Part shown: positions 58,028 to 62,803 of the stretch, in pieces
How positions within the stretch are numbered: position 1 is the stretch's first letter
Layout: each line of letters starts with the position of its first letter
NCBI GenBank assembly: GCA_902568875.1
Contig: CACFSG010000003.1
Coordinates: 1-64,000, forward strand
DNA from: an uncultured Pelagibacteraceae bacterium
GTDB lineage: Bacteria; Pseudomonadota; Alphaproteobacteria; Pelagibacterales; Pelagibacteraceae
Direction of reading: 5' to 3'
Length of the DNA stretch: 64,000 bases
Notes under the pieces: generated by a model
Database searches by the model: none
Seen by the model: only the letters and a program-made list of their open reading frames with translations
Told to the model about the DNA's origin: nothing
Position numbers and translations under genes: made by a program

Positions 58028-58423
58028 ATGAAAATAACTATACCCTATTATCTGCATAAAGCTGGTGCTGGATTTCCATCACCTGCCACTGATTATATTG
58101 AAGAAGACATTGATCTCAATATGCATTTAATAAGAAATGTTCCCGCTACCTTTATTATCAGAGTGCAAGGAAAATCCATGGTGGATGTTGGTATTAATGA
58201 TGGAGATTTATTAGTTGTTGATAAAAGTTTAAAACCAAAAAATTTTTCAACAGTAATTGCAAATGTTCATGACGAACTTGTAGTTAAAACTTTAATTCAA
58301 AAAAAAGATAAAAAATTTTTAGCGTCAGGATCTAAAGAATTTTCTAACAAAATTTTAATTAATGAAGAACAAGATACTTTTATTTGGGGAGTTGTAACTT
58401 ATGTTATCCACTCAGTATTCTAA
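58028..58423 (+). CDS. umuD: UmuD-like S24 peptidase / DNA polymerase V subunit
   Basis: AGFPSPATDYIEEDIDLN with Ala-Gly cleavage site, GKSMVDVGINDGDLLVVD (Ser), ELVVKTL (Lys). Confidence 0.92.
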   Translation: MKITIPYYLHKAGAGFPSPATDYIEEDIDLNMHLIRNVPATFIIRVQGKSMVDVGINDGDLLVVDKSLKPKNFSTVIANVHDELVVKTLIQKKDKKFLASGSKEFSNKILINEEQDTFIWGVVTYVIHSVF

Positions 58424-59678
58424 AAAAATAGCACTAATTGATTGCAATTCTTTTTATGTTTCTTGTGAAAGATTATTTAATCCAAAAATAAGAAAAAAAC
58501 CTGTTATAGTTTTATCCAATAATGATGGTTGTATTATATCAAGATCTAATGAAGCAAAAGCTTTAGGAATTAAAATGGGTGAACCTTATTTTAAAGCTAA
58601 AGATATAATTATTAAAAACAAAGTTGAAGTTTTTTCATCAAATTATTCTTTATATGGTGATTTATCTAGAAGAGTAATGAGAACTCTAAAAAGATTCAAT
58701 TCAGAAATAGAAATTTATTCAATCGATGAAGCATTTATAGACCTATCAAATTTTCTAGATTCAGAAGTTGAAAGAGTTGGTAAAGAAATTAGAGAAACAG
58801 TTTTACAATGGACTGGTATTCCAACTAGTATTGGTATTGCTAAAACTAAAACTTTAAGCAAAGTTGCAAATCATATTGCTAAGAAAAAACAATCAGGTGT
58901 TACGAGTTTAATTGGTATAAAAAACTTAGATCCAATTTTAGAAAAAGTTAAAATTAATGATGTGTGGGGTGTTGGTAGACAACTCACAAAATTTTATCAA
59001 AAAAATGGAATCTGTAATGCTAAACAACTTAAAAATAAATCTAATACTTGGATTAAAAAATGTTCCAATGTTTTAAGTTCAAGAACAGCAATGGAACTAA
59101 AAGGAATTCCTTGCATCAATTTAGAAACAACTACCACAAAAAGAAAAAGCTGCGTTGTCTCTAGATCATTTGGAAAAAGAATTGAAAAATTTCAAGAATT
59201 AAAAGAAGCAATTGCAAACTATTGTTTAAATGCATCTGAAAAAATTAGATCAGAGTCTTTAGTTGCAAAAGCAATTACAGTTTTTATTAGAACGAATCCA
59301 TTTCAAAGAGATTATATTTACTATTCAAATTCAAAAACTGTTGATTTTCCAATTGCAACAAACAATAGTATTGAAACTGTTAAAACTGCAGTTTCAATCT
59401 TAGAAAATATTTTCAAAAATGGATATCGTTACCAAAAAGCAGGAGTTATGCTCACGGGATTACAAAATGATGTTGGTATAAAAAACTTATTTTCATCTGA
59501 AAAAGATGAAAAAATAAAAATTTTAATGCAATCAATTGATAAAACTAATTATAGATATGGCAGATCGACATTAAGTCTTGCAAGTGCTGGCGTTCATAAA
59601 AAATGGAATATGAGAAGACAATATTCGTCTAAAATAGATACAGCTGATTTTTATTATTTACCAACGATAAGAGCTTAA
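58401..59678 (+). CDS. umuC: Y-family DNA polymerase UmuC
   Basis: IALIDCNSFYVSCERLFNPKIRKKPVIVLSNNDGCIISRSNEAKALGIKMGEP, YSIDEAFIDLS, GIPTSIGIAKTKTLSKVANHIAKK. Confidence 0.94.
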   Translation: MLSTQYSKKIALIDCNSFYVSCERLFNPKIRKKPVIVLSNNDGCIISRSNEAKALGIKMGEPYFKAKDIIIKNKVEVFSSNYSLYGDLSRRVMRTLKRFNSEIEIYSIDEAFIDLSNFLDSEVERVGKEIRETVLQWTGIPTSIGIAKTKTLSKVANHIAKKKQSGVTSLIGIKNLDPILEKVKINDVWGVGRQLTKFYQKNGICNAKQLKNKSNTWIKKCSNVLSSRTAMELKGIPCINLETTTTKRKSCVVSRSFGKRIEKFQELKEAIANYCLNASEKIRSESLVAKAITVFIRTNPFQRDYIYYSNSKTVDFPIATNNSIETVKTAVSILENIFKNGYRYQKAGVMLTGLQNDVGIKNLFSSEKDEKIKILMQSIDKTNYRYGRSTLSLASAGVHKKWNMRRQYSSKIDTADFYYLPTIRA

Positions 59679-61969
59679 ATCACTTTTTCGCTATGCAAAA
59701 GCGACATAAATTTATTAAATTCATTTGAATAAAATTTATTTGCAACTGACATAGTTTCTTTAATATCTGACTTGTTTATCGAAGCTAAAGTCTCATATGT
59801 TTCTGGTTTTTGAGCACAATTCATTGATACCATTTTTTCTGCAAAAGCATGTGCCAAAATATCATTAAAAAACATCTTCCATTGAGGAGTTTTAAAATTC
59901 GGAAACTTACCATTAATAGGTTCTTTTGAGCCTAAATAATGCCTAACCAGTGAGTGATCAGTTGTGATCTCAAGAATATTTTCTTCTTTTGGCTTCCATG
60001 CAGCTCTTACATTGTTCCCTAAAAAATGAGTAACATATTTTGGCTTATATTCAGTACCACTATCATCTTTTTCTTTCATCACATTAACGATAGTTGAGCT
60101 TGATATTGCTTCATGACTAACAGAAATTATCGATGAATCTAAAAGTTTTAAACCTTTAACTTTTAAAAAGCCTTTTAAATAATTTGTGCCTTCAACATGA
60201 TGAAGAGTTATTTCAGAACTTGAGCTCACAGCTTTTTGATTTAAATTAGAGATTGTAAGTTTGATCTTTTTTGTATCAATAAATTCTGGATATTTAGCAA
60301 AAACTGTTAAATTTTTTCCTGAATTTTCTTTTACGAAATATTTTTCTTTTTCAAATTCAAGTTGTTTTTTAAATTCTCTACTTTTTTCAAGAAAAACACA
60401 AACTCTGACTTGAGTCTTTAAATTATTTTTATAATTAATATTCAAGTCAAAATAATCACACTCTTTTATACCTTCTAACTCAAAAGATGCAAAACACTGC
60501 TCGTTTCTGAGTGGATTAACTCTAAATTTTGATTTTAAGTTTTTGATTAAAATATTATTTTTATATTTTTCAGGAAAAGAAATACTAACTTCGCTTTTTA
60601 AATCTACCTCAGATACATTGGTATAAACTCTAAAAGATCCCTTTTCTCCCTCTTTAATTTTCAAACCCTTAGGAAATACCATCCATTTACCAAACGGTAA
60701 TTTTTTTCCATTTAAATTTTGATAATTTTTTAACTCTTGATGAAGAATATCAAATTTTTTCTTTTGTTGATCTAAATCTTCTTTATCAGTTATATCATTT
60801 CCTGATTCTTTTCTATGCTTAACAACAATTTCATTTAAAATTTTTATTGGTTCTTTAAATAAATGATTCTTTACAAATGGATGATCTTTAATAAGTCCTC
60901 TTCTTCTTTCTTGATCATGAATTTGTTTTGGATTATCAGTTGTATACATTTTCTTTTTTGATCTTTTATCTTCAAAATCATGTGCTAATTCGTCAATATA
61001 ATGACATTTCAAAACACCATAATAAGATTTCAAAATTGATTCATTATTAAGTGTGTCATCTAAAAATGAATTTTCGTAAATTGCTTTAATTCCTTGAATT
61101 AAAATACCATAATGTCTGTATTCATGTGTAGACTCTTCCATTGGACTTTCGGTTTTGTATAATTGAAAATGCGCTAAAACTTTCTTTCCTTCTTTTGGAA
61201 ATAATTCTATTTTTTTATCAATTTCTAATTTTGCTTTTGGACTAGCAAAAGTAATTGAATATTTATTTTTTTTCTTATCAAATAAAACTAAATTAAGAGT
61301 GTTTTTAAACTCTTTATTTTTTACATCACTTAAAATATTTCTTAATTGGTACTGTTTTTTTAAATTATCTATTAATGTTTTTACTTGAGGAATATTTATT
61401 TGTGAATTTGGTGGAATTTTTAAAATAATATCTGTTCCATTTTTTAATTTTTTTGATTTGTGAAAATCAAATCCTTCAATATCTTTAGCGATAGTTTGAT
61501 TAATTTTATTTATAGGCACATCTCTATCAACGATTTTATATTGAAAAGTTTGATATTTAATTTGTCCAGTAGATATCTTTTTATCTTTTACTGTTTGAAT
61601 ATATACATCTGCAATTGAAGATACATCTAATAAACCTCTGGCAAAAAATCCTCTGCTAGCACCCTCACTTTTGATTTTATCTCCATGTTTTTTTAATACA
61701 GAGTATAATTTATCTGAGTCCATCCCAGCAGCTTTATCTGAAACTTTTACAGTTGTTGATCTAGCCTCACCTCCTCTATCATAAAAAATTGCACAATCTC
61801 CTTGATAAGTTTTATTTGGCTTATTTAATCTTTCATAAGCATCATCTACATTTGTTATCAATTCTACAAGTGCTTGAGTTAAAGACGTAATCGAACCTAA
61901 TGCTGTTAGCTGAGCTTGTCTTCTTGATCCCTCTACATCTTTCCATTCTGGAATTCTTTTTTTTTTCAT
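59675..61969 (-). CDS. GHKL-type (HSP90/MutL/MORC-like) ATPase with C-terminal beta-rich region, function unknown
   Basis: LTQALVELITNVDDAYERL (Bergerat N-box), VKVSDKAAGMDSDKLYSVL (variant D-x-G-x-G), GASRGFFARGLLDVSSIADV (G box), KNGTDIILKIP (GT box); residues ~430-680 look Ig-like/beta-rich. Confidence 0.75.
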   Translation of the reverse strand: MKKKRIPEWKDVEGSRRQAQLTALGSITSLTQALVELITNVDDAYERLNKPNKTYQGDCAIFYDRGGEARSTTVKVSDKAAGMDSDKLYSVLKKHGDKIKSEGASRGFFARGLLDVSSIADVYIQTVKDKKISTGQIKYQTFQYKIVDRDVPINKINQTIAKDIEGFDFHKSKKLKNGTDIILKIPPNSQINIPQVKTLIDNLKKQYQLRNILSDVKNKEFKNTLNLVLFDKKKNKYSITFASPKAKLEIDKKIELFPKEGKKVLAHFQLYKTESPMEESTHEYRHYGILIQGIKAIYENSFLDDTLNNESILKSYYGVLKCHYIDELAHDFEDKRSKKKMYTTDNPKQIHDQERRRGLIKDHPFVKNHLFKEPIKILNEIVVKHRKESGNDITDKEDLDQQKKKFDILHQELKNYQNLNGKKLPFGKWMVFPKGLKIKEGEKGSFRVYTNVSEVDLKSEVSISFPEKYKNNILIKNLKSKFRVNPLRNEQCFASFELEGIKECDYFDLNINYKNNLKTQVRVCVFLEKSREFKKQLEFEKEKYFVKENSGKNLTVFAKYPEFIDTKKIKLTISNLNQKAVSSSSEITLHHVEGTNYLKGFLKVKGLKLLDSSIISVSHEAISSSTIVNVMKEKDDSGTEYKPKYVTHFLGNNVRAAWKPKEENILEITTDHSLVRHYLGSKEPINGKFPNFKTPQWKMFFNDILAHAFAEKMVSMNCAQKPETYETLASINKSDIKETMSVANKFYSNEFNKFMSLLHSEKVI

Positions 61970-62586
61970 ATTTCTGTAAAAACTTCTTTCAAATATTTCT
62001 TAAAACTTTTTTGTTTTTTTATCTTTTTATCTATTAAATCTAAAACTTTTTGATCATCAGAAATTTTTGCCCATCTGTATATTTTAATAATTGTGCTATT
62101 TAATAAAGGAAGGTTGTTTACTGAAATGTTTAAGACATCAGCTAGATGATATATTGTAAAATCTTTCCCTTTTAATTCAAAATTTTTATGCTTTTTAAAT
62201 TCTGAAAGAACTTTTCTTTGAAATTGAGATAAAGTTTTCTTTGATGTTTTAACATTTACTAAACTTGATAATGACTCGGCTTTTTCAAGACCTTTATCAG
62301 TTAAAGTCCACCCATCTTTAGACAAAAATTGCTGATCATATGTGCCTTTTAATAAACCATATTTTCTTGCTTTAAATAATCCTTGTGAAAGAGGAAGAGT
62401 ATTAGGGTAATTTTTATATGTTTGTTTTCGCCATCCGAACTTTTCTTTATTCCATTGAAATGCCTTATTCATTATATCTTCGCTGTGAATAGAATTTTTA
62501 GATCCACCTAAAGCATAACATGCCATTAATAATATTATATGCCTCTCTTTATGGGCGATACTATCTCTTGGTTTAGTCAATTTCAA
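61966..62586 (-). CDS. Uncharacterised protein, winged-helix-like N-terminal half
   Basis: 206 aa; HKERHIILLMACYALGGSKNSIHSEDIMNKAFQWNKEKFGWRKQTYKNYPNTLPLSQGLFKARKYGLLKG...WTLTDKGLEKAESL resembles a wHTH; overlaps ATPase gene by 4 nt. Confidence 0.6.
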   Translation of the reverse strand: MKLTKPRDSIAHKERHIILLMACYALGGSKNSIHSEDIMNKAFQWNKEKFGWRKQTYKNYPNTLPLSQGLFKARKYGLLKGTYDQQFLSKDGWTLTDKGLEKAESLSSLVNVKTSKKTLSQFQRKVLSEFKKHKNFELKGKDFTIYHLADVLNISVNNLPLLNSTIIKIYRWAKISDDQKVLDLIDKKIKKQKSFKKYLKEVFTEI

Positions 62587-62803
62587 AATCCTTTACTTCT
62601 CTACCTCCTGCAGGACTATTAAACTTGTTTTTAACAAAATTAATCTCTTGCTGAAGGGCATCTATGATTTGTTTGGATTGTTTTTTTGAATAACTATAAT
62701 GGCTCTTATTAGATAAATTTCCTATTAACTTTATAAGCTTAATGGCCTTATTAACTCGAGCATTTGCCAATTTTTTAAATTTATTATTGTTTTCAATAGA
62801 CAT
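62573..62803 (-). CDS. Small helical protein, first gene of the GHKL ATPase operon
   Basis: 76 aa ORF overlapping the downstream gene by 14 nt; NARVNKAIKLIKLIGNLSNKSHYSYSKKQSKQIIDALQQEINFVKNKF. Confidence 0.6.
   Translation of the reverse strand: MSIENNNKFKKLANARVNKAIKLIKLIGNLSNKSHYSYSKKQSKQIIDALQQEINFVKNKFNSPAGGREVKDFEID

Follow-up and report, generated by a model that had tools for sequence, protein, structure and literature searches.

Known GHKL conflict systems and the SAR11 triplet

Prokaryotic MORC and paraMORC ATPases combine GHKL and S5 domains, are sporadic and mobile, and lie near conflict systems of the restriction-modification (R-M) type; such MORC/paraMORC-like conflict ATPases have been known since 2008 (Iyer, Abhiman and Aravind 2008, PMC2292703). 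In VcSduA, a GHKL-Shedu (type I-D) anti-phage protein, the N-terminal GHKL ATPase is needed for defence (PMC12137116), while CapK (GHKL) and CapS (winged helix-turn-helix, wHTH) control immune operons (PMC13373217). Here we describe a three-gene operon, the triplet, in a 64,000-nucleotide stretch of DNA (the window; contig CACFSG010000003.1) from a Pelagibacter-type SAR11 genome that is 66% complete. Three minus-strand open reading frames (ORFs) in tandem, at 59675-62803, encode products of 76, 206 and 764 amino acids (aa), the last being a probable GHKL+S5 ATPase. The triplet shares the above properties of the MORC/paraMORC systems. Unlike their operons, it contains no helicase, nuclease or methylase, and it has features that they lack, namely a predicted Ig-like arm, a constant small protein and the 206-aa partner.

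We favour the explanation that the triplet is a mobile paraMORC-like conflict module, directed against phages or other foreign DNA and acting through an ATP-gated clamp, and assign this reading as a whole a probability of about 0.45. A role in defence is likely in itself, as is a mechanical principle common to the ATPases of the triplet and of the MORC/paraMORC systems. The 764-aa protein would be an ATP-gated dimeric clamp made of a GHKL ATPase and an S5 transducer, with its Ig-like and helical domains serving as the arm that contacts the substrate. The 206-aa protein could be a DNA-binding adaptor that directs the clamp to a signal or to foreign DNA. As a regulatory partner, the 76-aa hairpin would act on the GHKL/S5 engine, possibly docking there via its conserved C-terminal F-x-[L/I] tail, and the three proteins may form a physical complex. 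As no nuclease is present, DNA clamping or silencing, which has been proposed for eukaryotic MORC and SMCHD1, is preferred over restriction as the probable output. If true, a nuclease-free MORC-like clamp in bacterial defence would represent a prokaryotic parallel to MORC/SMCHD1 silencing. SAR11 bacteria are among the most abundant in the ocean, have streamlined genomes and are not known to carry a rich arsenal of defence systems.

An earlier interpretation made from the letters alone (the sequence-only reading) had proposed a self-contained accessory module of an undescribed kind. Its GHKL/MORC-like ATPase, its three-gene unit, the absence of a nuclease and the non-housekeeping character all stand. 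However, the module is not self-contained, as the family of its small protein is common to many other GHKL operons, nor is it a wholly new kind of system, as it resembles the known paraMORC/MORC theme (PMC2292703). What is new here is the nuclease-free triplet with its predicted GHKL-S5-Ig-Ig ATPase, and the small-protein family that links many GHKL operons. Neither is described in the literature searched, preprints and most subscription papers being outside its coverage.

Co-conservation and genomic sites of the triplet

The triplet was found in 3 of 397 family-level and 5 of 399 genus-level genomes (own genome included in each), which corresponds to about 1% of the sampled Pelagibacter species, at differing loci. 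Relatives are also present in two SAR11 single-cell genomes, L002 and L003. Identity of the ATPase to the window copy ranges from 77% down to 25-30%. All copies that are not cut by a contig end comprise the small protein, the 206-aa-type protein and the ATPase, in the same order and with overlapping ends; in L094, the contig ends within the second gene. Co-conservation of the three genes thus holds, even at 25-30% ATPase identity, and is a point on which the sequence-only reading had staked its interpretation. Identity as a housekeeping GHKL orthologue, which would also have refuted that reading, is ruled out by the prevalence of about 1% and the strong divergence. No relatives of the SAR11 ATPase were found in the viral contigs, phages or plasmids searched.

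The divergent copies of L002, L003 and L057 share another site, adjoining a conserved 75-aa gene and an amidinotransferase-like operon, and L094 has its right flank in common with L002. The same Pelagibacter site carries a Z1 gene (3.9e-33), a HATPase_c_3 GHKL gene (9.6e-13) and NERD/UvrD-like genes in L115:1-6048, and a Z1 gene (3.4e-20) in L121:903-2819, while inspection of L116-L120 revealed no such system. As the co-occurrence of Z1 and GHKL genes is known from R-M-like conflict systems (PMC2292703), the site behaves as a SAR11 defence-type hotspot, and a defence-type context is thus found for relatives of the triplet. The Z1 systems share with the triplet the integration site and, in L115, a GHKL ATPase. 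In contrast, the triplet has neither Z1 nor NERD/UvrD genes, and the GHKL sequences are not close (hhalign E 0.005).

Architecture of the 764-aa ATPase

The Bergerat-fold boxes noticed in the sequence-only reading are E36-LITN40-VDD43 (N box), D78-KAAG82 (G1), GFFARG at residues 107-112 (G2) and G178-T, and the catalytic positions hold: E36, N40, D43, D78, G82, G112 and G178 are invariant in seven homologues. With the N, G1, G2 and GT boxes all present, the motifs place the protein in the GHKL superfamily. K272 is also invariant among homologues and is a candidate for the S5 lysine. In a search of 386 alphaproteobacterial genomes, a five-sequence ATPase profile has its best non-family match in a bona fide MutL (E 4.6e-4). 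Profile-profile comparison (hhalign) of the ATPase family gives E 1.6e-6 for MutL and E 1.7e-8 for the GHKL protein of locus L049, and with a seven-sequence profile HtpG/Hsp90 chains come first in the PDB (E 0.0035). Since the family profile matches MutL and HtpG, the boxes are not due to chance. The homologue in L094 exceeds the PF13589 cut-off (26.0 versus 25 bits). The ATPase is not a MutL orthologue, as the match is limited to the GHKL region and the prevalence is about 1%. L013, considered as a distant class-level relative, is MutL and was discarded.

A Foldseek search with the AlphaFold2 model of the ATPase, built from seven sequences, returned the ATPase modules of GyrB, ParE, MORC3 (E 4.6e-9), MORC4 (TMt 0.52) and SMCHD1 over about 370-440 columns and, separately, Ig tandems (titin Z1Z2 and others, E ~1e-7). 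These matches to GHKL+S5 modules and to tandem Ig domains point to a clamp ATPase of the MutL/GyrB/MORC type, predicted to consist of GHKL, S5, a helical linker, two Ig-like domains and a helical C-terminus. The C-terminal region that had been described as beta-rich thus corresponds to two tandem Ig-like domains in the model. W658, N664, H672 and L679-G680 are conserved in the C-terminal helical domain. As the sequence-only reading had it, no nuclease is recognisable in the ATPase, and no TIR, HEPN or other effector domain was found by Pfam, PADLOC or Foldseek.

The small protein and its family

The 76-aa protein, already described as helical, is modelled by AlphaFold as two helices forming a hairpin (pLDDT 89), plus a flexible C-terminal tail that ends in F-E-I-D; the alignment rows for this model came from genome loci only. 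F9, R16, Y36 and F73 are invariant across 33 sequences, and a C-terminal F-x-[L/I/F] is retained in nearly all members of the family, which spans SAR11, Bacilli, Actinomycetota, Deinococcota and phages. The protein has no match to a known fold or family, nor to the PDB by fold or sequence. HEPN and DUF4145 identities were rejected on account of weak and inconsistent matches and of the two-helix fold.

The small protein is present in 20 of the 386 genomes of the class-level sample (about 5% of alphaproteobacterial species, own genome included), three of which are weak, partial matches. A GHKL-type ATPase gene lies downstream of it in 16 of 18 non-redundant loci of this sample and in all six new loci of the phylum sample. 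Such a linkage would have a chance of about 1e-25 if, as assumed, 2% of genes encoded such ATPases. Plasmid loci from Rhizobiales, Dinoroseobacter, Planococcus, Priestia, Arthrobacter and Deinococcus agree with it, while the plasmid loci L060-L062 have no GHKL-type gene behind the small protein. At least five groups can be distinguished among the linked ATPases, with no detectable similarity between them outside the GHKL region; a common C-terminal domain, suspected by eye, received no support from hhalign. The SAR11, L049 and 620-aa types can be assigned to GHKL firmly, and the assignment is good for the 830-aa type (HATPase_c_3 2.6e-4 in L047). The 830-aa GHKL-like family lies directly behind the small protein in L037, L041, L044, L045, L047, L048, L052, L055 and L087, and the two members scanned with PADLOC (L037 and L041) gave no match. 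The small-protein family provides one searchable marker for a set of largely undescribed GHKL conflict operons.

The small subunit, which is used by many otherwise unrelated GHKL systems, may recognise something common to GHKL engines. More tentatively, and with considerable doubt on our part, the hairpin could be an unnamed shared subunit of otherwise unrelated conflict systems (the SAR11 triplet, PDC-M33, the 830-aa, 620-aa and L049 types and, once, GmrSD), where it would dock through its F-x-L tail on the GHKL ATPases as a sensor or licensing factor common to them all, while phage copies would be decoy inhibitors. Stand-alone phage homologues without a GHKL gene occur at L059:7866-8309 (an IMG/VR contig, with an added Cys-rich N-terminus), L065:3001-3279 (Synechococcus phage S-CRES1 gp47) and L066:4983-5204 (a gut phage), and these are possibly decoys or regulators.

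In a scan limited to the related operons, several of them have defence-type neighbours, among which are dcm, Vsr, AlwI, MutH/Sau3AI, Shedu and DRT9. The DRT9 reverse transcriptase gene of L042 (12790-14451) immediately precedes a small-protein/PDC-M33A-like operon, which also has a cytosine methylase as a neighbour.

The 206-aa protein

Within the 206-aa family, a G-G pair, W52 and a D-G-W-x-L-T-x-x-G pattern are invariant. As the latter is of wing type, a winged-helix fold is plausible. A significant homologue of 219 aa (hhalign E 5.8e-10) is encoded in the operon L049:6671-10962, between a small protein and a 558-aa GHKL ATPase; behind these, the same operon encodes a 600-aa protein with RpoA-CTD and sigma-70 region 4 domains. 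Since this operon keeps the order of small protein, 206-aa-type protein and GHKL ATPase, the three-part logic reaches beyond SAR11. The product of the third Ensifer gene (P0002) is suggestive of the 206-aa protein by eye, but the likeness is not significant.

Comparison with described systems

The MORC family proper is defined by the S5 motif G-h-x-h-h-p-x-x-R-h-l (PMC2292703). The closest stretch of the triplet ATPase, GILIQGIKAIY, has an A for the R (compared by eye, with the register assumed), and the arginine is also absent in L005, L094 and L095. Given the absence of this MORC-specific arginine, the ATPase appears to be paraMORC-like rather than a MORC proper. It does not belong to paraMORC3/Shedu I-D, as its C-terminus is Ig-like and no PD-(D/E)xK (DUF4263) nuclease was detected there by Pfam or PADLOC; VcSduA, in contrast, has a C-terminal DUF4263 nuclease. 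Nor does it belong to paraMORC4, as neither the ATPase nor the flanking genes gave a TIR match. The marks of paraMORC2 and paraMORC5 (S5 ExxxH; C-terminal HxH) are not obviously conserved in the alignment, which is made up of homologues of the triplet ATPase.

PDC-M33, a PADLOC phage-defence candidate, likewise begins with a member of the same small-protein family followed by a GHKL-like ATPase gene. However, its partners are PDC-M33B and DUF6339 instead of the 206-aa protein, its ATPases have no significant sequence similarity to that of the triplet, and the PDC-M33A/B/C HMMs match no window protein. Eukaryotic MORC3, MORC4 and SMCHD1, which are among the best fold matches together with GyrB/ParE, are nuclease-free chromatin proteins. 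Their CW, PHD and SMC-hinge domains were not found in the triplet, which has bacterial operon partners.

Alternative explanations

Several observations weigh against a clamp-based defence module. The window copy, flanked by umuDC on one side and a polysaccharide lyase gene on the other, has no defence gene adjoining. None of its three proteins matches a PADLOC, NCBIfam or Pfam family above cut-off (PHROGs is also negative), and the 206-aa protein, a putative winged-helix protein, has no match in any library scanned. The ATPase model is of moderate quality (pLDDT 70, pTM 0.46). With regard to the small-protein family, the two exceptions among the 18 loci are L053, with nothing recognisable downstream, and L050 (10203-12429), the single clear case of a swapped partner, with a GmrSD/PDC-M55C protein encoded behind the small protein in place of a GHKL ATPase. 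For the PDC-M33A and Ensifer partners, membership in GHKL is read from motifs and weak profile scores.

The principal rival readings are abortive infection and CapK-CapS-like regulation. Abortive infection, in which the GHKL protein would be a sensor or switch and a toxic effector concealed in the 206-aa protein or in the Ig/C-terminal region would kill or arrest the cell upon phage sensing, is rather unlikely. Extra downstream genes of unknown function (e.g. PDC-M33B, DUF6339) do occur in many operons that share the small protein, and VcSduA is a precedent for GHKL-controlled defence (PMC12137116), although its effector is a nuclease, whereas no effector was revealed in the triplet by the domain and fold searches above. 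It is improbable that the GHKL protein is a DNA-damage sensor under whose control the 206-aa protein, a putative wHTH, would act as a transcription factor. The adjoining umuDC and the pairing of a GHKL with a wHTH-type protein recall such a role, CapK and CapS being known to govern immune operons (PMC13373217). However, CapK and CapS have STAS domains, of which none was found in the window proteins, and a kinase-type GHKL, with no S5, Ig or small protein, while the predicted S5+Ig architecture fits clamp ATPases and not SpoIIAB-type kinases. Moreover, the flanks vary between copies, leaving no conserved downstream operon to control.

A role in DNA repair or as a MutL substitute, to which the same umuDC neighbour, the MutL profile match and the absence of a HATPase_c_3 match above the family cut-off in the incomplete window genome would lend themselves, is very improbable: presence in about 1% of relatives, fast divergence and a hotspot location do not form a housekeeping pattern. 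Related operons on plasmid and prophage-like carriers could also suggest a cassette that is selfish or stabilises plasmids, brings the host no benefit and has an antitoxin-like small protein. This too is improbable, given that the small protein pairs with ATPases and not with known toxins, and also occurs alone in phages.

Gene organisation and neighbourhood in the window

The coordinates of the three ORFs (Table 1) and their overlaps of 14 nt (genes 1 and 2) and 4 nt (ATGA; genes 2 and 3) are exactly as in the sequence-only reading.

Table 1. Genes of the triplet and predicted domains of its ATPase, in window coordinates.
Feature	Position	Strand	Basis
Gene 1, small helical protein, 76 aa, ATG start	62573-62803	-	ORF
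Gene 2, putative winged-helix protein, 206 aa, TTG start	61966-62586	-	ORF; fold inferred
Gene 3, GHKL ATPase, 764 aa, ATG start	59675-61969	-	ORF, motifs, profile and fold matches
GHKL (Bergerat) ATPase domain, residues ~1-190	61400-61969	-	Invariant motifs, MutL match, Foldseek
S5-like transducer domain, residues ~225-340	60950-61297	-	GyrB/MORC3/MORC4/SMCHD1 fold matches, model strands; exact borders inferred
Two tandem Ig-like beta domains, residues ~430-631	60077-60682	-	AlphaFold and Foldseek; borders from strand pattern
C-terminal mostly helical domain, residues ~655-764	59678-60007	-	AlphaFold, low to moderate confidence

The G+C content gives no signal of a recent foreign origin (26.6% for the operon versus 27.4% for the window). 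A pair of umuD-like (Peptidase_S24) and umuC-like (IMS and DUF4113) genes at 58028-59678 converges on the ATPase gene; such a pair is not found beside the triplet in other genomes. The sequence AAAGGA lies directly upstream of the TTG start of the 206-aa gene, and the start contexts of the three genes are consistent with translational coupling.

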